Source: Candidatus Poribacteria bacterium (GTDB taxonomy: Bacteria > Poribacteria > WGA-4E > WGA-3G). From it: a DNA stretch of 36,716 nt. The notes below the pieces were generated by a model. That model was not told the origin of the DNA. It made no database searches and saw nothing but the letters and a program-made list of their open reading frames with translations. The position numbers and the translations under genes are program-made. Positions 7,471 to 36,716 of the stretch are shown here, piece by piece; positions within the stretch are counted from its first letter, which is position 1; every line of letters starts with the position of its first letter. The stretch spans positions 1 through 36,716 of the forward strand of contig JAPPBX010000015.1 of NCBI GenBank assembly GCA_026702755.1, read 5' to 3'.

Positions 7471-7581
7471 AGAATGGAGAGTTGACGGTTAACAGTTAAC
7501 AGTTAAAAAAGGCATTCGGTTCATCAAAATCTCTCTTTAACCGACAACTGACAACTGACAACCGATAACTAATAAAAAACT
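7471..7581. repeat. palindromic spacer between ribBA and ribH
   Basis: This is a run of GTTAACAGTTAACAGTTAAAAA, a unique middle segment, and then an inverted run of TTTAACCGACAACTGACAACTGACAA ending ATAAAAAACT directly before the ribH ATG. The two runs are mutually complementary. No ribosome binding site is visible before ribH. Confidence 0.75.
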
Positions 7582-8061: not shown

Positions 8062-8195
8062 GTTATCAGTTATCGGTTTGCCTCGCAGTGAGAGTTGTCA
8101 GTCACTCGTGTGTGTAGCATTGACAATCATTCGCAACGCACCCAATGATCTCTTAACTGAAAACTGGTAACTGAAAACTGACAACTATAAAAAAA
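8062..8195. repeat. palindromic spacer between ribH and hisH
   Basis: It begins GTTATCAGTTATCGG and ends with TCTTAACTGAAAACTGGTAACTGAAAACTGACAACT just before the hisH start. These flanks are inverted copies of the CAGTTATCAGT family. The middle is unique. Confidence 0.7.
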
Positions 8196-8804
8196 ATGAT
8201 TGCAATTATAGATTACGAAGCAGGAAACCTTACAAGTGTCGCGCGTGCCTTGACACATCTCGGCTATAAAAACCAGATTACATCCACCGCTGAAACGATA
8301 CTTACAGCCGACCGCGTTATCTTTCCCGGTGTCGGTGCCGCAAAAGCCACGATGCAAACCTTACACAAACGCGGGTTAAACCAAGTCCTCACAGACTTCT
8401 ACCGCACCGGCAAACCGATGCTCGGCATCTGCATCGGAATTCAGATCCTCTTTGAACATAGCGAAGAAGAGGATGCCGAATGTCTGGGGCTTCTACGAGG
8501 ACGTGTAAAGAAATATCCTACGGCTGGTTCAGAAAAACTAAAGGTCCCACAAATCGGTTGGAACGAAGTGTATCAGACAAAACCGCACGCAATCTTCAAA
8601 GACGTTCCGAATCCGGCACACTTCTATTTCGTCAATTCCTACTATCCTGAGCCAGAGAAAACGGACGTTGTAATCGGAAAGACGACGTACGGACTTGAGT
8701 TCTGTAGTGCGATTGCCCAAGACAACCTCATCGCGACACAGTTCCATCTCGAAAAGAGTGGGCGTGTCGGGCTAAAAATGCTTAATAATTTTCTGAGCCT
8801 TTGA
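8196..8804 (+). CDS. hisH: HisH: imidazole glycerol-phosphate synthase glutaminase
   Basis: This 202-residue class I glutamine amidotransferase supplies ammonia to HisF for formation of imidazole glycerol phosphate in histidine synthesis. The start MIAIIDYEAGNLTSV is the family's signature. The triad is Cys79 in GICIGIQ, with His184 and Glu186 in TQFHLEKSG. The oxyanion strand PGVGAA is at 44-49. The Leu in place of the usual Pro between His and Glu (FHLEKS for FHPEKS) is a mild departure. No hisF or hisA lies next to it, so the partner must be elsewhere. The ATG follows a repeat island and an A-run, with no Shine-Dalgarno. Confidence 0.95.
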   Translation: MIAIIDYEAGNLTSVARALTHLGYKNQITSTAETILTADRVIFPGVGAAKATMQTLHKRGLNQVLTDFYRTGKPMLGICIGIQILFEHSEEEDAECLGLLRGRVKKYPTAGSEKLKVPQIGWNEVYQTKPHAIFKDVPNPAHFYFVNSYYPEPEKTDVVIGKTTYGLEFCSAIAQDNLIATQFHLEKSGRVGLKMLNNFLSL

Positions 8805-8903
8805 TTGTCAGTACTCAGTACTCGGTTATCAGTTAAGAGGCACTCTGAATAATCAAATCCTTCTTTAACTGAGTACTGATAACTGAAAACTGAGTACTAA
8901 AAA
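8805..8903. repeat. palindromic spacer before the histidine kinase
   Basis: GTCAGTACTCAGTACTCGG then TTATCAGTTAAGAGG on the left are complementary to CTTTAACTGAGTACTGATAA and CTGAAAACTGAGTACT on the right. The whole 85-base block can fold as one long hairpin ending six bases from the next ATG. It is a CAGTACTC variant of the window's common unit. Confidence 0.75.
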
Positions 8904-10478
8904 ATGCTAACATTCTTTCTCGCACTTTTTGTGCTCCTCATCAACGTCAGCGCGCATCTGTTTCAGATGTCGGAATACTATCCAGCAATAAGCCACTGCT
9001 ACTACGGGGTGATGATTCTCTCAGTCCTCTACATGAAACCTCGCGGACAGAATGTTTTGTTCGCTATTACGGCAGTAGCCAACTGGATTTATGTCTTCCG
9101 CTATCCGAATCAAGTCGAAAGCATCATCATCGCACTTCTCTATCCGTTTGTTGTATTCGGCGTTATCCGCGTCATTCGTCACTTCCACACGCAGCGACTG
9201 AGTGGTGCTGAAGAGATAGAGGAGATACACAGTGTCAATGCGAATTTAGAGAAACAGGTACGGGACATCTCGACGCTTTTTGAGGTAAGTAAAGCGGCAA
9301 ACGCAAATCTTGAGTTAGAGGGATTATTTCAGCGCATCATTGAGATTCTGTCCAAGCGACTCGGCATATATCGCGGGGCTTTACACCTCTACGAAAACGG
9401 GGAGGTCATCACTGAGGTCGAAACCGTCTTGGGACTCACACCCGCCGAGATGAAACGGGGCACCGACAATCAGATGGAAGACATTCAGAAACAGGTACTC
9501 GCAACAGGTAAAGCGATCGGCGTTCCACAAACTCGGAACCCGCTCAGTTATGTTAAACTCTTTGAATCCGAACGCGTTGAATCCAAAGACAGAATCGCGT
9601 TCTGGTGTATCCCGATTGTTGTCGAAGAGAACGTCATCGGTACATTGACGATAGACAAAGCATCCGATGAATTTTCAGCAGAGGACGATCGGAGGCTCTT
9701 AACAATTATCGCCTCCACCATTGCACAAGGCGTTAAAATCCAACAGACAATCGACGCATTGGTTGAATCAGAACGGATGGCAACACTCGGAAGACTCGTC
9801 CGAACCATCGCACACGAGGTGCGAAACCCACTCGGCAGTATCCGGCTTGGCACACAACTGCTGCAAAGTTCAGACGTGGACGGATTTTCACAAGTTTCCG
9901 AAACCCCTTCTGAAAATGTCCAACTCTCTCAAGACGAGATTCAGGAATACACCGCAATCATTATCAAAGAGGTGGACAGGCTGAATCGGTTCATTGAGCA
10001 ATTGTTGGCTTTCAGCAAACCCGCAATGCGTGCTGCAAAACGGACAGACATCCACCAACTCCTTGATAGCAGCCTCGCGATCTGCCGTCCGGAATTGGAG
10101 CATCAAGCCATCACGGTAATCACGCAATACGGCACTTGTCCAGAAGTCAATGTTAACGAAGACGGTATAACGCAGGTCATTCTCAACCTATTTTACAACG
10201 CCATTGAAGCGATGGATACAGAAGGAACGTTGACAATTCAGACAGAATATGTGCCAGAGACAGAAGTCGTCCTTATGCGTGTTCAGGATGACGGACCCGG
10301 GATTCCACCTGAAGATATACCGATGCTGTTCGATCCGTTTTACACCACCAAACAGAAAGGCACCGGGTTGGGACTCCACATCAGCCAAAGAATTCTTGCT
10401 GAACATCGGGGCAGCATTCAAGTTGATGAGAACCTCGAAGTCGGCACAGCGTTTGTCATGTCCCTCCCTGTGTATTAA
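8904..10478 (+). CDS. membrane sensor histidine kinase with GAF domain
   Basis: This is a 524-residue sensor. Residues 1-92 hold about three or four hydrophobic segments (for example TFFLALFVLLINVS and SIIIALLYPFVVFGVIRVI), placing it in the inner membrane. A coiled-coil linker with a GAF domain follows (about 115-265). The HisKA domain (SERMATLGRLVRTIAHEVRNPLGS) carries the phospho-acceptor His304. The HATPase domain has the N-box NLFYNAIEAMD, then VQDDGPGIPPED, FDPFYTTKQKGTGLGL and the G2 box, all intact. It lies 14 bases before an NtrC-type response regulator, which must be its partner. The signal is unknown; GAF domains bind small ligands or tetrapyrroles. It resembles the NtrB/AtoS-type kinases that feed sigma54 activators. 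Confidence 0.93.
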   Translation: MLTFFLALFVLLINVSAHLFQMSEYYPAISHCYYGVMILSVLYMKPRGQNVLFAITAVANWIYVFRYPNQVESIIIALLYPFVVFGVIRVIRHFHTQRLSGAEEIEEIHSVNANLEKQVRDISTLFEVSKAANANLELEGLFQRIIEILSKRLGIYRGALHLYENGEVITEVETVLGLTPAEMKRGTDNQMEDIQKQVLATGKAIGVPQTRNPLSYVKLFESERVESKDRIAFWCIPIVVEENVIGTLTIDKASDEFSAEDDRRLLTIIASTIAQGVKIQQTIDALVESERMATLGRLVRTIAHEVRNPLGSIRLGTQLLQSSDVDGFSQVSETPSENVQLSQDEIQEYTAIIIKEVDRLNRFIEQLLAFSKPAMRAAKRTDIHQLLDSSLAICRPELEHQAITVITQYGTCPEVNVNEDGITQVILNLFYNAIEAMDTEGTLTIQTEYVPETEVVLMRVQDDGPGIPPEDIPMLFDPFYTTKQKGTGLGLHISQRILAEHRGSIQVDENLEVGTAFVMSLPVY

Positions 10479-10492
10479 GGAAAATTAAAAAA

Positions 10493-11914
10493 ATGTCGAA
10501 TTTTGTGCTTATTGCTGACGACGACGACAGCCTCCGCCAAATACTCGCCGCCACCCTTAAAAAGGCAGGCTATCAGACCCTTACAGCCCGAAACGGCGCG
10601 GAGACCTTAGCCTGTGTCAGGGAAGCAAACGTCGATGTCATCCTGCTCGATATTTGGTTAGGCGATGCTAACGGAATCGAACTCATTGAAGATATTCAGC
10701 AATATAACAGCACCGCCGCAATTATTATAATCACAGCACACGGAACGACACAGACTGCGATCGACGCGGCGAAACAGCGGGCGTATGGATACCTCACAAA
10801 ACCCATTGACCAGCGGCAGTTGTTGGACCTCGTATTGCGCGCTGCCGACGCTACCGATCAAACGAGGAACGTCAAAACATCAACAACCTCCATTGATGTC
10901 GATGGACAGGGAAGGATGGTTGGACAGAGTCCGGCAATGCAAGAGGTGTACCATAAAATTGGACGCGCAGCTGTCAGCGACGAAACCGTTCTCGTTTTAG
11001 GTGAAAGTGGAACCGGTAAAGAGCTCGTCGCCCAATTAATCCACCAAAATAGCCACCGCTCTCATAATCCGTTCATCGTTGTCGATTGTGGCGCGATGCC
11101 GTCCAGCCTCATTGAAAGCGCGCTCTTCGGGCACGTCAAAGGCGCGTATACCGATGCACATACCGCAAGGAAAGGTAAATTTCAACAGGCAGACAGCGGT
11201 ACGATCTTCCTCGACGAAATCGGGGAATTGCCGATTGAGGTTCAGATGAAATTGTTGCGCGTGCTACAAGAGCGAGAAGTTGAACCGATGGGCGGGACCG
11301 AGACACACGCTGTCGATGTCAGGATCATCGCTGCAACTAACCGACGGCTTGAAACCGCAATCGCGCAGAAATCCTTCAGGGAAGACCTCTACTATCGGCT
11401 TAACGTCATCCCCATCTCTCTCCCACCCCTCCGGGAACGGAAAGAGGATATACCGGAACTCATAGACCTCTTCACACACAGGTTCATTGAAGAATACCAA
11501 TTGCCTGAAATCGGTATCTCTCCAGAGGTCGTAAAACGTCTCACGGCGCATGAGTGGCCCGGGAACGTGCGTGAATTAGAAAACGCCATTAAGCGGGCAC
11601 TCGTGATGTGTTCAGGACAAATGCTATTATCTGAACATTTCGATCCGATTCTCGATCAACCGGGTCCCACCAGTGAGTCAGGGAACCTTGACGCACAAAT
11701 TTATAGCCTACTCCAAGCGCACGTTCAACAGTATATGGACTCCGAAACATCGCCGGACGAACTCTACGCTGAAATCCGGGCGATCTTTGAGAAACCGCTC
11801 TTTAAAATCGTGCTTGAGTACACCAATGGAAACCGGAGTAAAGCCTCAGATATTCTCGGCATTAACCGGAATACGCTTCACACAAAACTTATTGAGTACA
11901 AACTTGTCTCTTAG
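10493..11914 (+). CDS. NtrC-family sigma54-dependent response regulator
   Basis: This 473-residue activator has three domains. The receiver (1-120) has the acidic pocket DDDD at 9-12, phospho-acceptor Asp53 in LLDIW, and Lys in LTKP. The AAA+ domain (about 140-370) has Walker A GESGTGKE, Walker B TIFLDEIGEL and the sensor region RIIAATNRRLE. Its sigma54-contacting loop reads GAYTDA where the consensus is GAFTGA. A C-terminal Fis-type helix-turn-helix (NRSKASDILGINRNTLHTKL) binds enhancers. AAGGAA lies upstream of the ATG. The kinase gene 14 bases upstream is its cognate sensor. Targets are unknown; the adjacent EutN-type genes and lipoprotein are candidates. Confidence 0.95.
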   Translation: MSNFVLIADDDDSLRQILAATLKKAGYQTLTARNGAETLACVREANVDVILLDIWLGDANGIELIEDIQQYNSTAAIIIITAHGTTQTAIDAAKQRAYGYLTKPIDQRQLLDLVLRAADATDQTRNVKTSTTSIDVDGQGRMVGQSPAMQEVYHKIGRAAVSDETVLVLGESGTGKELVAQLIHQNSHRSHNPFIVVDCGAMPSSLIESALFGHVKGAYTDAHTARKGKFQQADSGTIFLDEIGELPIEVQMKLLRVLQEREVEPMGGTETHAVDVRIIAATNRRLETAIAQKSFREDLYYRLNVIPISLPPLRERKEDIPELIDLFTHRFIEEYQLPEIGISPEVVKRLTAHEWPGNVRELENAIKRALVMCSGQMLLSEHFDPILDQPGPTSESGNLDAQIYSLLQAHVQQYMDSETSPDELYAEIRAIFEKPLFKIVLEYTNGNRSKASDILGINRNTLHTKLIEYKLVS

Positions 11915-12021
11915 GAGTAGTCAGTCATCAGTTAACAGTCGTCAGTTAAGAGATGGTTTAGTTAAATCATATCCCTCCTTAACTGATAACCAACGACTGA
12001 AAACTGAAAACTATTAAAAAA
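11915..12021. repeat. palindromic spacer before the EutN-type genes
   Basis: GTCAGTCATCAGTTAACAGTCGTCAGTTAAGAG on the left is complementary to CTTAACTGATAACCAACGACTGAAAACTGAAAACT on the right, followed by TTAAAAAA and the next ATG. There is no Shine-Dalgarno and no sigma54 (-24/-12) motif that I can see. Confidence 0.7.
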
Positions 12022-13218: not shown

Positions 13219-13575
13219 ATGCAATCTCCATCAGGGCTATCGGCTTTCAGCAGGAATGGAACCATCAGCGGTCAGGACGGTTTTTCTGCGAAAAACCTTT
13301 CAGGTTTGACCAAGAACTCGCGCCTTAGTAAAATTATTTGTAGACGAGTTCTTGGTCAAAGCAAAGAGAAAACCAAGAGGTAAAATTTCTTGAAATATCT
13401 TTGCCGATTGCTGATGGCTGATTGCTATTCTTGCTGATGCCTTCTTTTCTTAAATCTTAAAGAAAAGGGAAACAACCTACAACAAATACAATAAACAACG
13501 TCCGCTTGATTACAGATTTTTTCAAATTACAATTTGCCAGTCCGATAAATTTAGAACCTTGGAGTTAATTTTTTA
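13219..13575. repeat. 357-bp gap filled with dispersed repeats
   Basis: No gene is seen. In order it contains the GCTATCGGCTTTCAGCAGGAA spacer family, the ACGGTTTTTC/GAAAAACC hairpin (13277-13297), a 56-bp hairpin (13305-13360; see that entry), GATTGCTGATGGCTGATTGC repeats, and an AT-rich stretch leading to a GGAG-like site before the C25 peptidase. No obvious promoter consensus was found. Confidence 0.75.
13305..13360 (-). repeat. 56-bp hairpin element, copy 1
   Basis: The perfect 16-bp arms are TTTGACCAAGAACTCG and CGAGTTCTTGGTCAAA, with an asymmetric 24-base interior (CGCCTTAGTAAAATTATTTG...). The interior fixes the orientation: this copy is inverted relative to those at 34151, 35772 and 36608. 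It is one of five copies in the window. Confidence 0.9.
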
Positions 13576-22506: not shown

Positions 22507-22595
22507 AGGACTTACGCCTCCGTTGCTGGCGAGGTTTAAAACCTCGCCAGCGGCGCGTGGAATGTCCGTAGTTATCAGAAAATTGCGTAAGTCCT
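22507..22595. mobile_element. 89-bp MITE-like element
   Basis: Perfect 11-bp terminal inverted repeats AGGACTTACGC/GCGTAAGTCCT enclose 67 bases, including a GCTGGCGAGGTTT/AAACCTCGCCAGC palindrome. No coding capacity. AGTA occurs close to both ends (22501-22504 and 22597-22600) and might be a degraded target duplication. It lies in the 22460-22667 gap between convergent genes, where nothing else is recognised. Confidence 0.65.
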
Positions 22596-22667: not shown

Positions 22668-24479
22668 CTACTTTGATTCACGCAGTTCCCTGAGTTTGTC
22701 TAACGCAACCTTATTTCTCGGTTCTAATTCTAAAACCCGTTCAAAGGCACCAATCGCCTCGGGGATATTTCCAAGTTCCTGATAAGCAACACCTAAAGCA
22801 CCATAAGCGCGAACGTGCCTCGCCTCAATTGAGATAACTTTTTTAAACAGTGAGACGGCTTCGAGATAGTCCTCTTTCATCAGAGCAATTAAGCCGAGTC
22901 TATAAACGGCTTGGGCATCTGTTGCATCATGGGTGATGACCTGTTTGTAGTGTGGCTCGGCTGCTGCATAACGCTGTTTTTTCCAATAGGCACCGGCAAG
23001 ATCGCGATGCACGGACAGCTTAGATGGCACGAGTTCAAGTGCCTTCTGATAATGCTGAATCGCCTCTCCAAGTTGTCCCGTGTTCTCATACACCGTCGCA
23101 AGATTTGCGTGTACATTTGAGAAAAAAGTGTCGTAATCCGAAGGGTTCAACTGTCCGTGAGATTTGCTATCTGTTTTATTTTTTTTAAACTGAAGAACCA
23201 TTCGACACGCACGGATCGCTGCAGCCGTCTGTCCGATTTCATAATAGATCTGTCCTATATAGTTATAAGCTTGTGCTTTCAAGTAGGTTATCTCGTCTAT
23301 ACTTCTCTCCTTCTGAACCTCTATATCCTTATCGAGTAGCGAGAGGAGACGTTCTAATACGGCTAAGGCTTCGTGGTGTTGTGCCGTATAGAGCAGTGAA
23401 ACGGCATAGTCGAACCAGACCTTTATATCTTTCTGTGTGTCTGATATAAGCGGTTCAAATTCAGCAACAGCCCTCGCGTAATTGCCTTCTGACATATAAC
23501 GCCTACCACGTTCCGCATACAGCGGCGCAGTAACGCCCGCTTGAAGCACGTCCCACCATAAAGGATCTACTAATTCGTTGTATTCACTGGGAAGTCGCGC
23601 TGGCTGCGCGTGCTGCTTTGCTGCCTGTTTATCCCCGAGGACGATAGCAATTTGCGCCATTAGGGCATGTGCTTCACTTTGTCTCGGATTCAAGCGGAGT
23701 GCGTTCTCTAAATGCGTCCGAGCAAGTTTCATCTGCTGCTTCGCGAGCGCAATTTCGCCGAGCCAGAGTTCAGAAAATGGATTGTCCGGTTGAAAGTGTT
23801 TCGCTCGCTCCAAATGGTGTCGTGCTTCATCAAGTCTCCCTAAAATGCGGAGCGCGGAAGCGAGATAGAGATGCGCGGGCGCATATCCGGGTCTCAACGC
23901 AAGCGCACGGGTAAGATATTTCACAGCATCTTCAGGTTGACGCTGCTTCGTCAAACGTCCAAGAAAGTAGAGCCATCCGAATTCATCGGGCGCGAGTATA
24001 CTCGCTTGGCGATAACACGGTATCGCTGGTATTTCCCATCCGTGGCTGAGATAGACGTGTCCCAATTGCCCCCAGACATCGGCATCGTCCGGAGAAGCCC
24101 GAACCTTTGCTTGTGCCTCCTCAATCGCCTCCAAAAGCAATTTTTCCTCAACCAAGTCGAGATCAGCAGGTTGGGGAATAGTCGTCAGTACGGATTTTTT
24201 TTCAAAAAATCCTTTCAGTTGTCGGTTTTGACCAACAACTCGCGCTTTAGCAAAAGTATCGGTAGACGAGTTGTTGGTCAAAGTAAAAAGAAGTTTTTCG
24301 TCTGCGAGTATCTTCTTTAACTGACTGTTGACCGCTGATTGCGGCCTGCTAATTTCACTAACCGCAAAAATAGGAACACTCATCAGTATGAAAAGAAAAA
24401 GCCAATTATGTGAGAGGGCAATGATGTAGGAGGGAATTCTGATTCCCGTCCCAGTTATCTTCAAAAGTCTTTTCTTCAA
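22668..24479 (-). CDS. TPR-repeat protein
   Basis: This is a 603-residue protein. Residues about 22-42 (SHNWLFLFILMSVPIFAVSEI) form a signal anchor or signal peptide, so it is periplasmic or membrane-tethered. From about residue 100 onward it is nearly all tetratricopeptide repeats (for example DDADVWGQLGHVYLSHGWEIPAIPCYRQA; AHLYLASALRILGRLDEARHHLERA; VHANLATVYENTGQLGEAIQHYQKALEL), a scaffold for protein contacts. Residues about 48-101 are not TPR; they are the translation of dispersed repeat modules, including 56-bp hairpin copy 2. The start ATG overlaps the stop of the CRTAC gene (24476-24479), so the two are co-translated. TPR/CRTAC pairs probably act together at the cell envelope. Confidence 0.88.
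   Translation of the reverse strand: MKKRLLKITGTGIRIPSYIIALSHNWLFLFILMSVPIFAVSEISRPQSAVNSQLKKILADEKLLFTLTNNSSTDTFAKARVVGQNRQLKGFFEKKSVLTTIPQPADLDLVEEKLLLEAIEEAQAKVRASPDDADVWGQLGHVYLSHGWEIPAIPCYRQASILAPDEFGWLYFLGRLTKQRQPEDAVKYLTRALALRPGYAPAHLYLASALRILGRLDEARHHLERAKHFQPDNPFSELWLGEIALAKQQMKLARTHLENALRLNPRQSEAHALMAQIAIVLGDKQAAKQHAQPARLPSEYNELVDPLWWDVLQAGVTAPLYAERGRRYMSEGNYARAVAEFEPLISDTQKDIKVWFDYAVSLLYTAQHHEALAVLERLLSLLDKDIEVQKERSIDEITYLKAQAYNYIGQIYYEIGQTAAAIRACRMVLQFKKNKTDSKSHGQLNPSDYDTFFSNVHANLATVYENTGQLGEAIQHYQKALELVPSKLSVHRDLAGAYWKKQRYAAAEPHYKQVITHDATDAQAVYRLGLIALMKEDYLEAVSLFKKVISIEARHVRAYGALGVAYQELGNIPEAIGAFERVLELEPRNKVALDKLRELRESK
24227..24282 (-). repeat. 56-bp hairpin element, copy 2, inside the TPR gene
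   Basis: The arms TTTGACCAACAACTCG and CGAGTTGTTGGTCAAA are perfect and carry compensatory changes relative to copy 1 (AAG to AAC matched by CTT to GTT). It is flanked by an ACGGATTTTT/AAAAAATCC hairpin (24190-24212). The block is translated as part of the TPR protein without stop codons. Confidence 0.9.
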
Positions 24480-26377
24480 AAAGACACCCCCTTCCCCTGA
24501 TGAACTGTCACACGCTGATCGGCAGATGCCCCCGGAAATTTCTCACGACTTCCATCGGGCCAGTGCACCTCAATCGCCTGAACAGCATCGATTGGGCCCA
24601 ACCCGAAATGTACGCTCGGTTCACTGCTACTGAGATAACTGGTTCCGGGTAGCACATAACCCGTCAACGCGCGCGACGGAGTTCGGAGCGTTACCTGTGC
24701 ACCGAGTGCATCGCGATTTTGGGTAATAGCTCGCACGAAAAGCCAATGATGTTGCGGTGGAGGCACGTCGTTTCGGAAAAAGCGGAGCCGATTGTCGAGA
24801 CCACTCACCACTATATCAATATCGCCATCCGTATCCATATCACCAAAAGCCATTCCACGGCTCACCTCAACCCACTTCGCAAAATCAGGCGCACGCGAAC
24901 TCACATCGGTGAAATGGACTGTGGGCAAGAAAGGCTCTCGGCTCTCGGTTCTCGGCAAAGAGTCTTCTCTTGGCTGACTGCCGATGGCTGACTGCCGACT
25001 GCTATCTTGCTGGCTGCCGATGGCTGACGGCTGATCGCCATTTTGAAAGAGGAGATTCGGTTCAGCGTAGAAGTTCCAGAACTCACCAACGTCCGCACCC
25101 TCAAGGACAGCACCGCGCTTTACTCGACCATTGACGAGCGCGATGTCGAGATCAGTATCGTTGTCAAAATCCAAGAAACCGCACCCGAAACCTGTAAAAG
25201 GAAGGTCGCGACCAGCAAACCCTGCTACCTCGGTCATATCACCAAACACCTGGTAGGAGGGAACTCCGATTCCCGACGCAACATAAAGCGTATTCGTCTC
25301 ACCTGACAAATGGGTCACAAACATGTCCGGACGCATATCACTGTTGACATCGCCGACAGCGATGCCCATGCTACCTTCAGGTTGCCCGTAAGCGTTGAAC
25401 GCAAGTCCGTGCAGTATGGCTTCCTCGGCAAAAGTGCCATCCGTCTGGTTTACCCATAACTGGTTGGCTTCCCCATCATTCGCGACATAAAAATCCGCCC
25501 AACCATCGGCGGTTAGATCGAGGCACACAACGCCAAGCCCTCTGCCGGGCATTGCGGCGATCCCCGTTTGGCGCGTTACATCTGTGAAAGTGCCATCGCC
25601 GTTGTTTCGGAATAATCGATCACCTGCAGGCTCGAAGACTTGGGGATTACAGTAATCCGGGGCACTATGTTTCCCACGACACACCATCTCTGGATCAAAT
25701 TGAACGTAGTTCACAACATAGAGGTCGAGGTATCCGTCCCTATTGTAATCGCCAAAAGTTGCGGAGGTTCCCCACGCTTCATTTGAGAGTCCAGCATCTT
25801 CCAAAGCAAAGGTCCCATCCCCGTTGTTCCGATAGAAAGCATCAGTACCGTAGTTTGTTACATAGACATCCACATCACCATCGTTATCCACATCACCGAT
25901 TGCGACACCTTGTCCATATCCGTCGTGTCCAATGCCAGTCGCTTCGGTAACATCAACAAACGTTCCGTCAGATTGTTGCCGAAAAAGCCGATTCGGGGCG
26001 GGGATATCCTCACCCGGCGGCGGAAATCGGATATGTAAGACATCAAGCGCGGCATCATTATCGTAATCAAATAGGGCAACACCACTCCCGATTACCTCCG
26101 GCAAGGCATAAGTCCCTGCGCGCCTGTAGGGGTTGGGTGACCTGTAAGGGCTGGGTGACCCAGCCCCTACAGCTCCGAGCGCGGAGGTCACTTCCGTGAA
26201 TAACGGCGCATCCGTTTCCGCTTGTGCCATCCACAAACACTGCATAATAATGATAAATGTCGCGGCATACAGTTGTAAGGGCTGGGTGACCCAGCCCCTA
26301 CACATTTCATCGGCTCGGTAAGTGTGCGTTGGAAAGAGCAGGAGGATACGCGGCTTTTCCAAAGGTTGATGCTGCAT
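24476..26377 (-). CDS. secreted CRTAC/FG-GAP protein (ASPIC/UnbV C-terminus)
   Basis: This is a 633-residue exported protein. AGGAGG lies seven bases before the ATG. A hydrophobic signal segment (LYAATFIIIMQCLWMAQA) is at about 37-54, set back by a repeat-encoded stretch (GWVTQPL). Seven VCBS/FG-GAP blades carry calcium-binding D-x-D/N-x-D loops: DYDNDAALD, DVDNDGDVD, DYNRDGYLD, DLTADGWAD, DVNSDMRPD, DFDNDTDLD, DMDTDGDID. The ASPIC/UnbV domain (about 555-625: GYVLPGTSYLSSSEPSVHFGLG, IEVHWPDGS) closes it. It has three repeat-derived insertions (residues about 26-34, 70-85 and 445-482). It overlaps the TPR gene by four bases. An extracellular adhesion or polymer-binding role is inferred. Confidence 0.9.
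   Translation of the reverse strand: MQHQPLEKPRILLLFPTHTYRADEMCRGWVTQPLQLYAATFIIIMQCLWMAQAETDAPLFTEVTSALGAVGAGSPSPYRSPNPYRRAGTYALPEVIGSGVALFDYDNDAALDVLHIRFPPPGEDIPAPNRLFRQQSDGTFVDVTEATGIGHDGYGQGVAIGDVDNDGDVDVYVTNYGTDAFYRNNGDGTFALEDAGLSNEAWGTSATFGDYNRDGYLDLYVVNYVQFDPEMVCRGKHSAPDYCNPQVFEPAGDRLFRNNGDGTFTDVTRQTGIAAMPGRGLGVVCLDLTADGWADFYVANDGEANQLWVNQTDGTFAEEAILHGLAFNAYGQPEGSMGIAVGDVNSDMRPDMFVTHLSGETNTLYVASGIGVPSYQVFGDMTEVAGFAGRDLPFTGFGCGFLDFDNDTDLDIALVNGRVKRGAVLEGADVGEFWNFYAEPNLLFQNGDQPSAIGSQQDSSRQSAIGSQPREDSLPRTESREPFLPTVHFTDVSSRAPDFAKWVEVSRGMAFGDMDTDGDIDIVVSGLDNRLRFFRNDVPPPQHHWLFVRAITQNRDALGAQVTLRTPSRALTGYVLPGTSYLSSSEPSVHFGLGPIDAVQAIEVHWPDGSREKFPGASADQRVTVHQGKGVSF
24930..25045. repeat. GCTGACTGCCGATGG-type repeats inside the CRTAC gene
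   Basis: Three copies of a TGGCTGACTGCCGA-like unit and CTCTCGGCTCTCGGTTCTCGG are translated on the minus strand as a Ser/Gln/Arg-rich insert (SAIGSQQDSSRQSAIGSQ) between two FG-GAP blades. The same unit occurs intergenically at about 13405, 30190-30265 and 31015-31120. Confidence 0.8.
26125..26170. repeat. 27-bp palindrome (plus a partial copy) inside the CRTAC gene
   Basis: A truncated copy (26125-26142) is followed by a full one (26144-26170) with core GGCTGGGTGACCCAGCC. On the minus strand it reads GAGSPSPYR...SPNPYRR, placed between the signal region and the first FG-GAP blade. The reading frame is kept. Confidence 0.88.
26275..26301. repeat. 27-bp palindrome inside the CRTAC signal-peptide region
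   Basis: A full copy translated in a different frame from the one at 26144, giving RGWVTQPLQ just before the hydrophobic signal segment. It lengthens the n-region by about nine residues. Confidence 0.88.
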
Positions 26378-26505
26378 GTGGAACCTCCTGCTTCATTATG
26401 GGGACGGTTATCAGTTTTCAGTTAAAGAGGTTCTCGTTTAACAGAGGCTTCTTGTAACTGACGACTGACAACTGAAAGGAAACGTACTCGTTTCCGTACT
26501 GACAA
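26378..26505. repeat. palindromic spacer upstream of the CRTAC gene
   Basis: It contains GGTTATCAGTTTTCAGTTAAAGAGG, the inverse TTGTAACTGACGACTGACAACTG and a GGAAACG/CGTTTCC hairpin (26478-26497). The end nearest the CRTAC gene supplies its AGGAGG. Confidence 0.65.
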
Positions 26506-27465
26506 CTAACTAACACGGGAACCGCGTAACAACTTCTGATACTCCGCATGTGCGTTCTGCGGATCGTCCTCACCGTCAAGCACACGCCGCAGGCACTGCA
26601 CAAAACCGATTGGGGCATCTTCACCGAAGATAGTGCGCCCGAATAGGATAGCGCGCCCACCGTTGCTGACGACGTTGTCCGCAAGCGCAAATGTGCTACG
26701 CGCATTCTGACGGGGACCGCCCAACGCTCCGATTACTAACGTCGTGTCGAATTGACATAATTCGCTCCAGACTTCGGCGGTCGTATACGCCGTCTTGATA
26801 AAGCGTGGACGCTGGTGTTTCCGCAGATAACTCATCGTCCGAACAATAGAATCGGCGACATACATGCCACGTTTCTCATCATCCATCCCCGGCAGCTTGA
26901 CATTCGGCAAGAACACCTCTAAGAGATGATCAAATCCTTCAATTTCACCGACAACATGCGCGAACTGCACATACGCTTGCAACATCCGTTCATCGGCGAT
27001 TGGTTCATTGTTGAGTGTAATGGAATACAAACCAAGGTTGACTCGACACTCAAGTGCGGGACCGATGAGTGCCTCACAATAACGTTGCATATCTTCTGGA
27101 AACACCGTCTGAAACGGCATTGACGGACTCGACGTGTAAACCCCAAACCTCGGGTTCCAGATAGCCGTTTCCGAGTTCATACGGACAATCGGTGTAATTG
27201 GTGTGTTTTCAAACAGATTCTCATCAAGGGCAAGGATTTCTGCATCGGCAGGTGTCATCAGTAATCCATCTAACTGCCCATCAGCAACGAGGTCGCGTTG
27301 TAGTTGCAAAAACTCTGCGTGTGTTCGGTAGTGTGGTTTTGGATGCTGCACCTGCCCAAGTCCTTTAATCCCCGCGGATGCGAGTGGATCCGCAGCAAAA
27401 ACCAGGATCGGGCTACGTGCAAGTAAGTCAGTATCAGCGAGTTTATCAAATATCCGGTTACCCAT
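26506..27465 (-). CDS. class I aldolase-like (DeoC/LacD type) barrel protein
   Basis: This 319-residue protein probably has a TIM barrel. Barrel strands can be traced: SPILVFAADP (strand 1), LDGLLMTPADAEIL, ITPIVRMNS, RVNLGLYSITLNN, HLLEVFLPNV, RPRFIKTAYTTAEVW (with a possible Schiff-base Lys), TTLVIGALGGPRQNARSTF and NGGRAILFGRTIFG (phosphate-binding end). The pattern resembles the DhnA/LsrF/DeoC group of class I aldolases. The substrate cannot be told from sequence. It stands alone between repeat islands; AAGGAA lies about 12 bases before the ATG. No sugar-utilisation genes are nearby. The residue choice for the lysine is an inference. Confidence 0.65.
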   Translation of the reverse strand: MGNRIFDKLADTDLLARSPILVFAADPLASAGIKGLGQVQHPKPHYRTHAEFLQLQRDLVADGQLDGLLMTPADAEILALDENLFENTPITPIVRMNSETAIWNPRFGVYTSSPSMPFQTVFPEDMQRYCEALIGPALECRVNLGLYSITLNNEPIADERMLQAYVQFAHVVGEIEGFDHLLEVFLPNVKLPGMDDEKRGMYVADSIVRTMSYLRKHQRPRFIKTAYTTAEVWSELCQFDTTLVIGALGGPRQNARSTFALADNVVSNGGRAILFGRTIFGEDAPIGFVQCLRRVLDGEDDPQNAHAEYQKLLRGSRVS

Positions 27466-27587
27466 GTATAATTAATTCCTTGTAATTAGTTATCAGTACG
27501 GTTTTTCTGCGAAAAATCTTTCAGTTTTCAGTTAAGAGAAAGACTTGATGAATTCAGATCCGCCTCTTAACTGATAACTGACAACTA
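27466..27587. repeat. palindromic spacer between priA and the aldolase-like gene
   Basis: It contains TTAGTTATCAGTACGG, the CGGTTTTTC/GAAAAATC hairpin (about 27499-27517), TTTCAGTTTTCAGTTAAGAG and the inverted CTTAACTGATAACTGACAACT. Confidence 0.75.
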
Positions 27588-30170
27588 TTAAAGTGTATTC
27601 GTTGGATCAATATCTATCACAAATTCAACAGCATTCGATTTAATTGCAGCCGGTGGCTCCTCAGTTAAGCGTTTAAGGAGTTGACCGATTTTTCCAACGG
27701 CGTTGCTCCGGAGCAAGAAATGCCACCGAAATTTCCCCTCAATTTTCGAGAGCGGTGCTGGCGCGGGACCGAGGATTTCTACTGTTGCCATTTCACTTTC
27801 GGAAACCTCTGAGGTGCGTCCTTGATCCGTTGGTTTGTAGGGGCTGGGTGACCCAGCCACTACAAGCTGATCCCGTACGGCGTGTGCAGTCTTTATAACC
27901 TCTTCCTCGTCTTTACCGCGGAGCAACAGCGTCGCAACGTGTGAAAAGGGCGGATATCGTAATGCCCCCCGCGCTTCAACTTCCTGCGTATAGAAATTAA
28001 GATAGTCGTGTTTCTGCGCAGCCAAAATGCAGTAATGCTCAGGCATATAGGTTTGAATGACGACCTTACCCTCAAGTTCAGCACGCCCAGAGCGTCCGGC
28101 GACCTGCGTCAGCAGGCTAAACGTCTGTTCACTTGCTCGGAAATCCGGAAGGTTCAAAGCCGTGTCTGCTGCAATAACACCTACAAGAGTGACATTCGGG
28201 AAATCCAACCCCTTTGACACCATCTGTGTGCCTATTAGGATATCAATCTGCTGGCGCTCAAACGCTTCCAAAATCTGCTGATGTGCGTTCTTCCGTGACG
28301 TTGAATCCGCATCAAATCGTTTCGCATTCGCCTTCGGAAACGACTTGCGGACCTCCTGTTCAACGGCTTCTGTTCCTGCCCCAAAAAATCGGATAGCCTC
28401 ACTACTACACTGTGGGCATGCAGGGTGCGTCGGACGTTTGTTACCACAATGGTGACAAACGAGCTGCTTCGTTTCACGGTGATAGGTAAGCGAAATAGAG
28501 CAGTTGTCACACTGTTCAACATAACCACAGGTTCGGCAGAAGACATAGGTGGAATGTCCACGCCGATTGAGAAACAGGATAATTTGTTCACGCCGAACAA
28601 GCCGTTCTTCAATCGAACTTCGGAGCATCTCAGAGAAGATCGTCCGGTTGCCTTTTCTGAATTCGGCTCGCATATCAACGATGTGAACATCAGGCATCTT
28701 TCTGTCGAGAACACGGTCCGGCATCTCAAGAAGCCGGTAACTCCCGTTCTTTGCACGATAGAAACTCTCAAGTGATGGGGTCGCACTTCCAAGCAGGACG
28801 GGACAGTTTGCGAGTTCACTCCGCTTTTGTGCTACCTCCCGCGCGTGGTAACGCGGAGCGGTGTCCGACTTATAGGAATCCGAGTGCTCCTCATCTATAA
28901 TCAACATTCCAAGTTCTTTCACAGGGGCAAAGATAGCAGAACGCGGTCCAATCACAATATCCGCTTCACCCTTTTGGATACGATGCCACTGATCGTAGCG
29001 TTCCCCATCGCTTAACCGGCTGTGCAGCAACGCAACACGATCCCCGAATCTTCCAACAAACCGCGATGCTGTCTGCGGTGTGAGCGAAATCTCTGGCACC
29101 AATACGATAATAGATTTTCCGTGTGCAAGGATTTCTGCCATCGCCTGCATGTAGACCTCAGTTTTTCCGCTCCCCGTCACGCCATGCAGTAGGAAAGTTG
29201 GTGCTTGATCAACGGTGCCCCTGTAGGGGCTGGGTGACCCAGCCCCTACGGCGTTCCGAATCTCCTCAAATGCTATTGATTGTGCCGGATTCAGGTGAAG
29301 CGGTTGTGTTGCCGGGACCGGTTCAGAACTCAGTGGATTACGAACCGCACGCGTACGGGCGATATGAATAAACCCACGCCTTTCAAGCGTGCGGAGTAGT
29401 GAAATGCTGGTTCCTACCCGTTTCGTCAGGTCGGTTGTTCCCAACGGAACACCTTCGTCAAGCAAAATCTGCAGAATTTCGGCATGTTTAGCAGCGGCAG
29501 CGTGTCGACGATTGCTCGTGCGCTGTCCAAGCGGATTTTCAGAACCCTCCGCGGCACTTTTAAGTTGAGAAATCTCCGCCTCAATTTCAGCAGGCGACAA
29601 AGCTAAAGCTGCTACATTGGTTTCCTGCGTGGTTGCTTTCGGTTTGTGGGTAACATTGGTCTCGACAGCACCTTTTTCGCTGAGTTTGGTAATTCTCGAA
29701 CGGACACCTTGATAACTCAAACCCATCCGTCTGGCAAGTTGATTGATAGAAAGTTCACCCTCTGCTTCCAAAAGTTCGACGAGTTCTTTTTGGACTTTTC
29801 CGAGTGACCCTGAAAATTCAGGAAGAAGCCGGACCTGTTCTCTTTTCTGGGTTCGCACAGCAGCTGGCACTGCACAAAAAAGAGCGATACCCCACGGGCA
29901 AACATAATATTCCGCCATCCATTTAGTGAGAGCGAGCAGTTCAGCCGAGAACGTCGGAGCCTCATCAAGGCATTCGGAAATATTTTTGATAAGGTTAGGT
30001 GCCAGATCGGTATCATCGAGTCGTTCGACAACGACACCTTCCTGACGCGCGCTTCGGAAAGGTGCTAAAACACGGCTCCCAGGTTGTAAAACTGGGTCCA
30101 GTTTGGGAGGCACGCCGTACGTGAACACTTGATCGACCGATAGGGGAAAAGCGACATTTGCATAACGCAT
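27588..30170 (-). CDS. priA: PriA: primosomal replication restart helicase
   Basis: This 860-residue superfamily 2 helicase recognises stalled forks and reloads the replisome. The N-terminal DNA-binding part begins MRYANVAFPLSVDQVFTYGVP. Walker A is HGVTGSGKTEVY (about 328-339), the DEEH box is IIDEEHSDSYK (about 424), and motif III GSATPSLES follows. The zinc region CRTCGYVEQCDNC...CHHCG...CPQC has all eight cysteines. GTQMVSKGLDFPNVTLVGV and QVAGRSGRAELEG are motifs V/VI, and EILGPAPAPLSKIEGKFRWHFLL is the C-terminal domain. At 860 residues it is long for the family. Two of the extra segments are palindrome translations (about 308-316 and 770-778), both in linkers. Residues about 125-260 also hold an unusual winged-helix-like insertion. 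No Shine-Dalgarno precedes the ATG. Confidence 0.95.
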   Translation of the reverse strand: MRYANVAFPLSVDQVFTYGVPPKLDPVLQPGSRVLAPFRSARQEGVVVERLDDTDLAPNLIKNISECLDEAPTFSAELLALTKWMAEYYVCPWGIALFCAVPAAVRTQKREQVRLLPEFSGSLGKVQKELVELLEAEGELSINQLARRMGLSYQGVRSRITKLSEKGAVETNVTHKPKATTQETNVAALALSPAEIEAEISQLKSAAEGSENPLGQRTSNRRHAAAAKHAEILQILLDEGVPLGTTDLTKRVGTSISLLRTLERRGFIHIARTRAVRNPLSSEPVPATQPLHLNPAQSIAFEEIRNAVGAGSPSPYRGTVDQAPTFLLHGVTGSGKTEVYMQAMAEILAHGKSIIVLVPEISLTPQTASRFVGRFGDRVALLHSRLSDGERYDQWHRIQKGEADIVIGPRSAIFAPVKELGMLIIDEEHSDSYKSDTAPRYHAREVAQKRSELANCPVLLGSATPSLESFYRAKNGSYRLLEMPDRVLDRKMPDVHIVDMRAEFRKGNRTIFSEMLRSSIEERLVRREQIILFLNRRGHSTYVFCRTCGYVEQCDNCSISLTYHRETKQLVCHHCGNKRPTHPACPQCSSEAIRFFGAGTEAVEQEVRKSFPKANAKRFDADSTSRKNAHQQILEAFERQQIDILIGTQMVSKGLDFPNVTLVGVIAADTALNLPDFRASEQTFSLLTQVAGRSGRAELEGKVVIQTYMPEHYCILAAQKHDYLNFYTQEVEARGALRYPPFSHVATLLLRGKDEEEVIKTAHAVRDQLVVAGSPSPYKPTDQGRTSEVSESEMATVEILGPAPAPLSKIEGKFRWHFLLRSNAVGKIGQLLKRLTEEPPAAIKSNAVEFVIDIDPTNTL
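27837..27863. repeat. 27-bp palindrome inside priA (C-terminal linker)
   Basis: A full copy with core GGCTGGGTGACCCAGCC and one arm mismatch. It is translated as AGSPSPYK between two structural elements of the C-terminal part of PriA, in the same frame (SPSPY) as the copy at 29223. Confidence 0.88.
29223..29249. repeat. 27-bp palindrome inside priA (before Walker A)
   Basis: A perfect copy translated as AVGAGSPSPYRG, in the linker just before LLHGVTGSGKTEV. It is identical over the core to copies in the CRTAC gene. Confidence 0.9.
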
Positions 30171-32850: not shown

Positions 32851-32877
32851 GTAGGGGCTGGGTTACCCAGCCCTTAC
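32851..32877. repeat. 27-bp palindrome at the dxr 3' end
   Basis: A copy with centre GGGTTACCC in place of GGGTGACCC. On the minus strand the centre reads GGGTAACCC, and its TAA is the dxr stop codon (32863-32865). The last dxr residues (GVRAG) come from the repeat. Confidence 0.88.
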
Positions 32878-34053: not shown

Positions 34054-34230
34054 AGTTTTAATAGTCACCAGTTATCAGTTATCGGTTATCAGTGAAGAGT
34101 CCCTTGTGGCAATCCCGTTTGCTGTATCCTCCACAGAAACCCTCTTTAACTTTGACCAAGAACTCGTCTACAGATAATTTTGCTAAGGCGCGAGTTCTTG
34201 GTCAAGACTGACAACTGATAACTATTCACG
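34054..34230. repeat. composite repeat island between cdsA and dxr
   Basis: The order is CCAGTTATCAGTTATCGGTTATCAGTGAAGAG, a TGTGG...CCACA module, CTCTTTAAC, a 56-bp hairpin (own entry), then ACTGACAACTGATAACT. The same layout recurs at 35689-35856 and 36510-36690. Confidence 0.8.
34151..34205 (+). repeat. 56-bp hairpin element, copy 3
   Basis: TTGACCAAGAACTCG pairs with CGAGTTCTTGGTCAA (15 bp). The interior TCTACAGATAATTTTGCTA is the reverse complement of that in copy 1. Confidence 0.9.
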
Positions 34231-35064
34231 CTATCCCAAATTTCCGGTCAATTCCAGATAATAATAAAGAACGGGTGTGCTAAAAATCAGGCTATCGCAT
34301 CTATCAATGAATCCACCGTGCCCCGGAATTACTTGTCCGGAGTCCTTAACACCGGCAGTTCGTTTCATAAGTGAGGCACTTAAATCCCCAAGTTGCCCCA
34401 ACACACTCAATAGCAATCCAATAAAGACGGCATTTACCCAAGAGAGCGTTCCCTTCAGGAGAATCATACTCAGCACGAAACTCGTCAAAGTCCCTACAAC
34501 CAATCCACCGATAGTCCCTTCGACCGTCTTTCGCGGACTCACCGGCGTGCCGAGTTTGTGTTTGCCGAACGCTCTCCCTACGAGATACGCACCGGTGTCA
34601 CTGCACCAAATTATTCCAGCCAACAGAAAGATAAGATGCCTGCCGACCGGCTCCGCATTTCGTAGCAAAATAAGGTGGTACCCGAGTGCCCAACCGATCG
34701 TTAAAATGCCGGTTAATTTGAGAGTAGCAGCGAGCAATTCACCGGCGACCTTCCCTCTAAAAATACTTTCTGCGAAAACGTAGATGAAGACGAAGGTGAA
34801 GAAACTAAATATTACCGTTGATGCAGATACTGTCTCTGTCAGTGTAGGCAAAAAATACGCGAACAAACAGAACGCACTTGTTAAGAGTACCGGCATCACC
34901 GGATTCAATTTTTCCGTGAAGTGCTGTGCTAAGCGACAGTACTCAACTTGCATCATTACAACTGCAATAGACACAAGTAGCAGATAGAGCCAATTTCCCC
35001 AATAGACAATCAGGAGAACTAACGGTACCAGCACAACTACACTCAAGGCTCTCCGCCAAAACAT
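34231..35064 (-). CDS. cdsA: CdsA: phosphatidate cytidylyltransferase
   Basis: This 277-residue integral membrane enzyme makes CDP-diacylglycerol from phosphatidate and CTP. About eight hydrophobic segments are visible, starting ALSVVVLVPLVLLIVYWGNW. The family signature sits in the C-terminal third: SLMKRTAGVKDSGQVIPGHGGFIDRCDS (reading S-x2-KR-x4-KD...HGG-x2-DR-x-D), preceded by SPRKTVEGTIGG. The length is typical. It lies between frr and dxr, where uppS would normally be next to it. GCAGGA lies about 11 bases before the ATG. One unusual point is the Cys within the DRCDS motif, where a hydrophobic residue is usual. Confidence 0.95.
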   Translation of the reverse strand: MFWRRALSVVVLVPLVLLIVYWGNWLYLLLVSIAVVMMQVEYCRLAQHFTEKLNPVMPVLLTSAFCLFAYFLPTLTETVSASTVIFSFFTFVFIYVFAESIFRGKVAGELLAATLKLTGILTIGWALGYHLILLRNAEPVGRHLIFLLAGIIWCSDTGAYLVGRAFGKHKLGTPVSPRKTVEGTIGGLVVGTLTSFVLSMILLKGTLSWVNAVFIGLLLSVLGQLGDLSASLMKRTAGVKDSGQVIPGHGGFIDRCDSLIFSTPVLYYYLELTGNLG

Positions 35065-35103
35065 AGGTTTTGTATCCTGCTAATCAGTAACTGACAACTA
35101 TTC
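35065..35103. repeat. short spacer-repeat remnant between frr and cdsA
   Basis: TAATCAGTAACTGACAACT is a single-armed remnant of the common spacer family. Nothing else is seen. Confidence 0.5.
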
Positions 35104-35688
35104 CTAAGTCTCTAATAACTCAGATTCTTTTGCCTCCGTCAACTCGCTAATCTGGTCGATGTATGCATCCGTGAGCTGCTGAACGGGGTCGTTACTTCCT
35201 TTTCCGCGCTTCTTATTGCCGCCGCGGCTCCTGCTTTTACCACCGCCATCGCCGTCACCACCTTCAAGTTTTTTGACAGCTTCATTGGCATCGCGGCGAA
35301 TATTCCGAATCGCCACTTTACCCTCTTCAGCGAGTTTACGGACGACTTTCGTCAACTCGGTTCGGCGTTCCATTGTGAGCTCGGGGACCAAGATCCTAAT
35401 AACGTTCCCGTCGTTACTCGTTGAGAATCCGAGATCGGAAAGAGCTATTGCTTTCTCAATTTCTGTAATTAGCGTTTTGTCCCAAGGTTGAATGACGAGC
35501 AGACGAGGCTCAGGAGTCGTAATCGTGCCGACCTGACTCAGCGGGCTTTTACTACCGTAATACGTAACGCTCACCTGGTCTAAGAGTGCTGTTGTCGCGC
35601 GCCCTGTTTGCACGTGCGACAGTTTCGTCGCCGTTGCTTCGACCGTTTTCTGCATTCGGGACTCAGCCTGTTGAAGAATTTGTTGCAT
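35104..35688 (-). CDS. frr: Frr: ribosome recycling factor with Gly/Arg/Lys-rich insert
   Basis: This 194-residue protein splits post-termination ribosomes with EF-G. The head and first helix are typical: MQQILQQAESRMQKTVEATATKLSHVQTGRATTALLDQVSVTYYGSKSPLSQVGTI, then WDKTLITEIEKAI and KVAIRNIRRDANEAVKKLE. The short acidic segment that normally follows (about 15 residues) is replaced by 26 residues rich in Gly, Arg and Lys (GGDGDGGGKSRSRGG...KGSNDP; coordinates 35185-35262), after which VQQLTDAYIDQISEL resumes the helix. GGGGAAA lies upstream of the ATG. pyrH, which usually precedes frr, is absent. Confidence 0.95.
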   Translation of the reverse strand: MQQILQQAESRMQKTVEATATKLSHVQTGRATTALLDQVSVTYYGSKSPLSQVGTITTPEPRLLVIQPWDKTLITEIEKAIALSDLGFSTSNDGNVIRILVPELTMERRTELTKVVRKLAEEGKVAIRNIRRDANEAVKKLEGGDGDGGGKSRSRGGNKKRGKGSNDPVQQLTDAYIDQISELTEAKESELLET

Positions 35689-35856
35689 CTGATTTTTCCC
35701 CAGAGTAGTTATCGGTTATCGGTTGTCGGTTAAAGAGTTTCCTCTGGCATCCACAGAAACCTCTTGTAACTTTAACCAAAAACTCGTCTACCGATACTTT
35801 TGCTAAAGCACGAGTTGTTGGTTAACACTGACAACCGTTCCGCTATTCCATTATCT
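35689..35856. repeat. composite repeat island between tsf and frr
   Basis: AGTTATCGGTTATCGGTTGTCGGTTAAAGAG, then CTGGCATCCACAG, CTCTTGTAAC, hairpin copy 4 and ACTGACAACCG. It has the same modular order as the islands at 34054 and 36510. Confidence 0.8.
35772..35825 (+). repeat. 56-bp hairpin element, copy 4
   Basis: TTAACCAAAAACTCG pairs with CGAGTTGTTGGTTAA with one mismatch. The outer TTAACC/GGTTAA pair is a compensated change from TTGACC/GGTCAA in other copies. Confidence 0.85.
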
Positions 35857-36450
35857 TTACTGTCCAAGGACATAGAGCACAAAACGTTTGACGACGATAT
35901 TCTCGCCTAATTGGGCTATAGCGTCCTTTACAAGGGTTTCAATGGTTTTGTCTGTATCGCGAATATAGGCTTGCTGTAGGAGGCATGTCTCTGAGTAAAA
36001 CTTAGATATCCGTCCTTCAACAATCCGGTCAGCGATGTGGGCAGGTTTACCTTCTTGCTCCGCTTGAGCTTTCAAAATCGATTTTTCAGCCTCAAGGTCC
36101 TCGGCGGGTACATCCTCCGGCTTAAGGTATTTCGGTTTAGCGGCTGCGACCTGCATCGCAATCTCTTTCCCTAACGCTTGGAATTGTTCCGTTCGTGCGA
36201 CAAAATCGGTTTCGCAATTCAGTTCAACTAATGTACCAACACGGCTGCCGGGGTGGATATATGAAATGATCAAACCCTCTTCTGTCGCCCTGCCACCTTT
36301 CACTTCGGAAGCTTTCAAGCCTTGCTCCCGCAACTTCTGAATCGCTTCGTCAATATTTCCATTCGTCTCTGTTAGCGCCTTTTTGCAGTCCATAATCCCT
36401 GCCCCCGTGCGCGAACGGAGGTCGCTAACGAGCTTTGCTGTAATTGCCAT
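35857..36450 (-). CDS. tsf: Tsf: elongation factor Ts, short form
   Basis: This 197-residue guanine-nucleotide exchange factor for EF-Tu belongs to the short type seen in Thermus and many other bacteria, lacking the second core subdomain of E. coli EF-Ts. The N-terminal UBA-like part is MAITAKLVSDLRSRTGAGIMDCKKALTETNGNIDEAIQKLREQG. Core signature ELNCETDFVARTEQFQALGKEIAMQVAA contains the TDFV motif that contacts EF-Tu. The C-terminal RISKFYSETCLLQQAYIRD and VVKRFVLYVLG complete it. GAGGAGG lies five bases before the ATG, one of the few strong sites in this half. It would normally follow rpsB, probably just beyond the window. Confidence 0.96.
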   Translation of the reverse strand: MAITAKLVSDLRSRTGAGIMDCKKALTETNGNIDEAIQKLREQGLKASEVKGGRATEEGLIISYIHPGSRVGTLVELNCETDFVARTEQFQALGKEIAMQVAAAKPKYLKPEDVPAEDLEAEKSILKAQAEQEGKPAHIADRIVEGRISKFYSETCLLQQAYIRDTDKTIETLVKDAIAQLGENIVVKRFVLYVLGQ

Positions 36451-36716
36451 TTATCCTCCTCTTATTTTCGCTTTGGCTTTCTTCACAGTGAAGGAGCCGT
36501 GAGCGGTCGGAGGAATGGTTGTCAGTCCGAGAACGGGGACGTTCCGTTTCGGTGGTCAGTTATCGGTTAAGGGACCGCTTGTGGCATCCACAGAAACCTC
36601 TTGTAACTTTGACCAAGAACTCGTCTACAGATAATTTTGCTAAAGCGCGAGTTCTTGGTCAAGACTGATAACTGATAACCCTTCCTCTGATAGCCAATTT
36701 ATTGAGACTGTTGTCG
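36451..36716. repeat. composite repeat island at the window end
   Basis: It contains the SD region of tsf, a GAACGG/CCGTTTC-like hairpin (about 36528-36550), GGTCAGTTATCGGTTAAGGG, CTTGTGGCATCCACAG, CTCTTGTAAC, hairpin copy 5 (36608-36662) and ACTGATAACTGATAACC. No gene is supported in the last 50 bases. A minus-strand gene such as rpsB may end near here, but the visible stretch is too short to tell. Confidence 0.7.
36608..36662 (+). repeat. 56-bp hairpin element, copy 5
   Basis: TTTGACCAAGAACTCG pairs with CGAGTTCTTGGTCAA. The interior TCTACAGATAATTTTGCTA is identical to that of copy 3. Confidence 0.9.

Follow-up and report, generated by a model that had tools for sequence, protein, structure and literature searches.

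Target replacement by a family of 27-bp GTAG-tagged palindromes in Candidatus Poribacteria, as suggested by comparison of occupied and empty sites

How does the same short palindrome come to stand in frame within unrelated conserved genes, and what occupied these places before it arrived? The question is raised by a stretch of DNA of 36,716 nucleotides (the window), contig C15 in the 5.84 Mb genome G000 of Candidatus Poribacteria, a group of sponge-dwelling bacteria; the named sequences nearest to its PriA come from Candidatus Poribacteria assemblies. The initial annotation of the window described four copies of a 27-bp palindrome within a CRTAC-type gene and priA, took them for in-frame insertions of nine codons and likened them to the palindromic elements of Rickettsia. 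All four copies were confirmed at their positions (Table 1), and an intergenic fifth one brings the number to five within 6.7 kb. As had been proposed, two reading frames are open when GGGTCACCC lies on the coding strand and both are in use, three copies giving peptides of the VGAGSPSPY type and one giving CRGWVTQPL. Both full copies in the CRTAC-type gene share one variant start, GTAA, which, like the crowding of five copies, speaks in favor of local copying. Since genome G007 has ATG TTTATTAGA TTGTATGC at this place, the true start codon of the gene is probably the ATG at 26304–26302, and the copy at 26275 would thus lie right behind it, in the N-region of the signal peptide.

Table 1. Palindrome copies in the window and the genes that carry them
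Feature	Coordinates	Strand	Remarks
CRTAC-type gene, 633-codon ORF, ASPIC/UnbV and FG-GAP	24476–26377	-	two full copies and one half copy
Half copy, left half of an older copy of the TTGGG variant	26126–26142		GTAGGGGTTGGGTGACC; abuts the full copy at 26144
27-bp palindrome, 1 mismatch, CRTAC-type gene	26144–26170		minus-strand reading VGAGSPSPY
27-bp palindrome, 1 mismatch, directly after the probable CRTAC-type start codon	26275–26301		minus-strand reading CRGWVTQPL
priA, primosomal protein N'	27588–30170	-	two copies
27-bp palindrome, 1 mismatch, loop near the PriA C-terminus	27837–27863		VVAGSPSPY; GAGCATTGG of G007 replaced
27-bp palindrome, perfect, PriA loop between helix 295–309 and the strand before Walker A	29223–29249		VGAGSPSPY
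Fifth copy, intergenic, 1 mismatch	32851–32877		

Distribution of the palindrome in Poribacteria genomes

The palindrome folds into a hairpin of 12 pairs with a 3-nt loop, with z-scores of about -6 to -7. Searching G000 for the 27-nt pattern (CTGGG and CGAGG sister variants, at most three mismatches) yielded 43 places, whereas the reversed pattern used as control yielded none in 5.84 Mb; these counts, together with the hairpin z-scores, indicate that the copies in the window are not due to chance. The 21-nt core, allowing at most two mismatches, occurs at 13 places in the same genome. Similar numbers were obtained for G001 (44 places) and G017 (43 places), again with zero for the reversed control in both. 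Related palindromes of the form GTAGGGGC...GCCCCTAC were recovered from 41 of the 60 Poribacteria genomes searched, with at most 30 per genome, and include other lengths: 28 nt in G049, 29 nt in G054 and up to 41 nt in G051. Fifteen pairs of copies lie less than 10 kb apart in G000 (2.95 expected); once contig C15 is removed, there are 5 close pairs for 2.28 expected and the clustering is non-significant (p 0.08).

A copy was counted as intragenic if it is flanked on each side by at least 25 open codons and coding-like composition. The genome-wide count of copies inside and outside genes that the initial annotation had called for was made on 42 of the 43 places of G000 (C96:150168 was left out): 16 copies (38%) are intragenic and 26 are not, as compared with 68% of 1500 random window positions, so that genes are avoided by the palindrome. 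The same rule is passed by 20 of the 57 copies examined in G001 and G017. Hosts include priA (twice in G000), the C-terminal domain of gyrA, transketolase between its domains, and tsaD, as well as a homocysteine methyltransferase-MTHFR fusion (between domains), ABC ATPases, a squalene-hopene-cyclase-like protein and a dipeptidase. Several ORFs end within a copy. Some old copies, common to several genomes, carry scattered substitutions and are decaying (C65, L239, L266). The tsaD gene of G001 (L242) also contains a second palindrome-like coded stretch, translated as VGLPNPY, after its TGGVA motif.

Occupied and empty sites compared

In order to see what each copy had displaced, its site was aligned with relatives that lack the copy, the four compared genomes being assemblies of uncultured bacteria. 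The flanking sequence is conserved up to the edge of the palindrome on both sides, and the ancestral stretch between the flanks is missing. Measured against one chosen empty relative per site, the ancestral DNA missing from each of the 25 compared intragenic sites amounts to 6–27 nt, with a mean of 13.2 and with every length divisible by three; a clean insertion of 27 nt relative to this empty state was observed at none of them. The description of the copies as nine inserted codons is therefore incorrect: they replace 6–27 nt, and the net change per copy is not 27 nt. Within the window, gene length increases by 12 nt at 29223, by 18 nt at 27837 and by 21 nt at 26275, while the composite of half and full copy at 26126–26170 adds 27 nt, with 51 nt in place of the 24 nt present in G007. 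At the site near the 3' end of priA, CTC-GAGCATTGG-AAACC of G007 corresponds to CTT-27 nt-AAACC; the copy at 29223 replaces 15 nt in a codon-anchored alignment (18–30 nt if flanking bases are counted), and behind the CRTAC-type start codon 9 nt of G007 have become 30 nt.

Eleven further sites of G000 and 17 from G001 and G017 follow the same pattern, shared old copies excepted. In the plainest case (C45), 30 nt of equal length in three relatives have been overwritten with no change in length, in a gene that is otherwise conserved; the net change is likewise zero for the second transketolase copy of G007, and at C48 the 18 nt between TCA and GAT have become 27 nt. The lost stretch is retained in three relatives at L223, L236, L253 and L268. 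More generally, among the 21 tabulated sites for which at least two empty relatives exist (L250 included), 19 have the same length in two of them or more and 14 in all, so the empty state is stable. Exceptions appear when other relatives are chosen: the loss becomes 0 at C99 and -3 at L237 (one of three relatives each), two of three relatives at L254 give a net gain of 36, i.e. a loss of -9, and the loss differs between relatives at C81 and at the C-terminal priA site. The count of 25 does not comprise sites at which the copy is common to all or most of the compared genomes or is decaying (C65, L238/L264, L239, L266), L218 and C102 (the same sites as C48 and L219, respectively), L259 (orthologue not found), L250 (two overlapping copies, loss 30), the composite S1, the start-codon site S2, and C6:18930, left uncompared. 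Taken as alignments, these data show full-length copies that have evidently entered new places by substituting a short target stretch, without long shared homology.

The residues encoded by both priA copies are absent from the PriA proteins compared within Poribacteria and, among the matches listed, from PriA of other phyla. An AlphaFold model computed from 20 sequences bears out the proposed location in linkers, since both copies reach into segments with a predicted pLDDT below 50: residues 311–320, between helix 295–309 and strand 325–330 before Walker A, and residues 775–794, between helix 755–773 and strand 798–810. Both linkers vary strongly among relatives, some of which carry other palindromes there: G001 has AGGGGCATCTCTTGTGGATGCCCCT, preceded by GT, at the C-terminal site and G005 an unrelated 29-nt palindrome at the N-terminal one. 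By this comparison, the PriA linkers are repeated landing sites. In another linker (L252 versus L285, L299 and L278), a CGAGG palindrome is found in G017, a different palindrome-like stretch of equal length in G000 and G001, and none in G007; these apparently represent independent landings at one spot.

Does the multiple of three reflect the way in which copies are placed, or what is kept afterwards? Intergenic sites are informative in this respect. From 19 candidates, 13 were queried and 12 compared, three of which were unusable (L140, L173, L224); L016 was queried and then left out, its tail recurring in many proteins. A C-terminal tail that resembles GLYFYTLTAGEFTATRKLLIRK and recalls a sorting signal is found in dozens of proteins of G000, G001, G007 and G017. 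The nine usable sites have lost 4, 8, 8, 8, 10, 11, 13, 13 and 17 nt, with no multiple of three and no zero, although L234 gives a loss of 15 against its other relative and for some of the values (L164, L166, L029, L025) the spacers are short and the relatives single. Because these intergenic losses are never multiples of three, the placing process appears to lose target sequence inside and outside genes alike and to be blind to the frame. We infer that replacement is the mode of entry and that retention of the frame is due to selection. Moreover, G049 has copies of 28 nt within long coding frames (L383, L386 and, more weakly, L380; 3 of the 12 copies examined), the L383 and L386 proteins having known Pfam domains, and 2 of 10 copies of 29 nt in G054 pass the intragenic rule. 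The earlier statement that reading frames survive because the length is nine codons is contradicted both by the lengths replaced and by these 28- and 29-nt copies. An adapted nine-codon length was accordingly rejected, the losses being 6–27 nt in genes and 4–17 nt between them. In-frame palindromes can thus be explained without a codon-adapted length.

Possible routes of entry

The reading that we prefer, with a probability of roughly 0.6, is that the elements are single (undimerised), fully symmetric, GTAG-tagged REP-like palindromes that would enter by replacement and whose survivors would be filtered by selection. Entry itself would be blind to the reading frame. Copies that disrupt a gene would be purged, so that flexible linkers (with the frame kept), stop codons and intergenic DNA would be the places where copies survive, to decay there in time as neutral sequence does. 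More tentatively, the copying may take place on single-stranded DNA: either a gap arising in replication or repair would be filled with a hairpin copy, or the polymerase would switch to a copy close by, traverse it and resume on its target 4–27 nt further along. The main alternative for this step would be a trans-acting Y1 (HUH) transposase cutting at GTAG. The broader proposition of a replacing mobility, in which a full copy is exchanged for 4–27 nt of target without long homology, each event being deletion and insertion at once, and in which essential genes are rewritten in frame where the lengths balance, seems to us slightly favored over its negation. The combination of fixed palindrome ends with a variable, concurrent loss of target constrains any mechanism and argues against both clean transposition and long-tract gene conversion.

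Overwritten sequence and element ends are identical at 103 of 330 positions, 84 being expected from composition (within-phase permutation p 0.20), and the first G matches at 17 of the 25 overwritten stretches. Microhomology for a template jump is therefore unsupported beyond this first G, and an extended homology, considered as a candidate, was discarded on the same figures. GTA was seen by eye at the left junction of 4 of 9 intergenic empty sites, versus 0 of the 25 intragenic sites used.

The most serious competitor, which we consider possible yet doubtful, is that a Y1 transposase (HUH, IS200-like or RAYT) mobilizes the palindromes in trans as non-autonomous REPs, cutting at GTAG and swapping a short target strand for the hairpin. 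The GTAG ends are in keeping with such a route, GTAG REPs being linked to RAYTs in portions of PMC3733652, PMC2817692 and PMC8266576. Y1_Tnp genes occur in 52 of the 60 genomes, five of them in G000, and copy and gene counts are correlated over the 60 genomes (Spearman 0.34, p 0.007); the within-genus correlation, however, is only 0.25 (p 0.15), one or two Y1 genes accompany 10–21 copies in four genomes, and copies are absent from six genomes with 3–7 Y1 genes. Four of the G000 genes are IS200/IS605 according to NCBIfam and the fifth is RAYT-like but below the cut-off (57 of 80 bits), and the palindrome is absent within 1.5 kb of all five, so that a RAYT bordered by the element, looked for at these loci, was not found. 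In addition, insertion of IS200/IS605 elements is not known to remove target sequence, which further counts against this route.

The remaining explanations are less probable. Import of whole linker alleles, palindrome included, from other species by homologous recombination, the lost stretch then being old divergence, would fit the patchy sharing among G000, G001, G007 and G017 and the fact that, around C103 and C48, proteins of G000 and G001 are 98% identical, but many sites have the copy in one of the four genomes only, with flanks that are not unusually diverged, and the origin of the replacement would merely be shifted elsewhere and left unexplained; we regard it as unlikely. Slightly less probable still is a two-step history in which 27 nt were inserted cleanly and the linker was afterwards shortened by independent small deletions beside the copy. 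Linker lengths in the genus do vary between species, and at C99, L237 and L254 some relatives would allow for an absence of loss; on the other hand, the losses abut an intact palindrome and never eat into it, perfect and presumably recent copies show them too, the overall length is unaltered at C45 and at the second transketolase copy of G007, and a clean insertion, though it would be in frame, is seen in 0 of 25 chosen pairs. That the palindrome is a true Rickettsia-type palindromic element (RPE), its nine-codon length adapted to insertion into proteins, we hold to be very improbable: in-frame intragenic palindromes in conserved genes are indeed what part of PMC2229807 describes for Rickettsia, with a published length of 105–146 bp versus 27 bp here, but the present copies are depleted in genes, lengthen them by 0 to 21 nt rather than 27, and have 28- and 29-nt versions in frame as well.

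Relation to known palindromic elements

By their anatomy, the closest kin of the Poribacteria palindromes are the GTAG-tagged REPs of Di Nocera et al. 2013 (PMC3733652), described there, as far as the available sections go, as 20–40 bp palindromes with a GTAG end, mostly intergenic near gene 3' ends, whose TAG is often a stop codon; intragenic GTAG and CGTC copies, including in replication and repair genes, have been published in the same work. The present family shares the GTAG, which terminates the listed copies apart from a few point variants, the size (27 bp), and the location, 26 of the 42 mapped copies being non-intragenic and several ORFs ending within one; with 43 places it is small by REP standards. 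In contrast, GTAG is unpaired in GTAG-tagged REPs whereas here it pairs with CTAC, both ends being tagged, and their RAYT is flanked by cognate REPs whereas around the five Y1_Tnp loci of G000 the palindrome is absent up to a distance of 1.5 kb. With GTAG paired and no flanked RAYT in G000, the palindrome is not formally a member of the GTAG REPs. Moreover, the Poribacteria copies are single and target-replacing, and the sections of PMC3733652 at hand make no mention of replacement.

The comparison with Rickettsia proposed initially holds as an analogy, the RPEs and their Wolbachia counterparts likewise being palindromes translated in frame in unrelated conserved proteins, but not as the nearest kinship, which lies with the GTAG-tagged REPs. 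In the excerpted text of PMC2229807 RPEs measure 105–146 bp and target duplication is described as unknown for them; the 27-bp, target-replacing copies are set apart from them by description, not by sequence. In PMC3733652, RPE-4 and RPE-6 are matched to the short CGTC repeats described there. In the way it works, the palindrome resembles REPs or RPEs that lie inside genes. REPINs (Bertels and Rainey 2011, partial text of PMC3116915) are also short palindromic DNA proposed to be mobile, but they are inverted REP doublets, whereas the Poribacteria elements are singlets, the closest full pair in the window being 131 nt apart and in the same register. IS200/IS605 elements share hairpin ends with the palindrome, and Y1 transposases occur in the same genomes, but no transposase gene bordered by the 27-bp element was found in G000.

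Intragenic REPs and RPEs are already known, and what appears to be new is the overwriting footprint. The dissemination of REPs is called poorly understood in the part of PMC8266576 consulted, and target replacement by a REP is not described in the portions available of that paper or of PMC3686654, PMC12306157, PMC2817692, PMC3116915 and PMC7218506, the last of which reports deletions near palindromes in fungal mitochondria. The footprint is apparently undescribed in the open-access literature searched, in part as excerpts, on the motif itself, REPs, RAYTs, footprints of REP insertion, Poribacteria repeats, coding palindromes and mitochondrial GC clusters. Through it, linkers of core proteins such as PriA, GyrA, TsaD and transketolase would change abruptly, and it can be tested in strain collections of any REP-rich or RPE-rich bacterium.

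Other repeats accompany the palindrome in G000. On contig C21 (L012:1200-2860), an IS200-family transposase gene lies in an array of repeats of about 50 nt with CCCCTACGGGG, a GTAG-centred palindrome distinct from the 27-bp element. The window itself contains many intergenic short repeats of the AGTTATCAGTT type and their complements (families D2–D16) at 6074–12018, 26398–27597 and 34057–36682. A dispersed repeat of about 60–124 nt around TTTGACCAA...CTCGCGC is present at 34092–34215, 35712–35835 and 36549–36672, and in inverted orientation at 24215–24296 and 13300–13361. A different palindrome, GCTGGCGAGGTTTNAAACCTCGCCAGC-like, is found in two copies, at 4263–4290 and 22525–22552.
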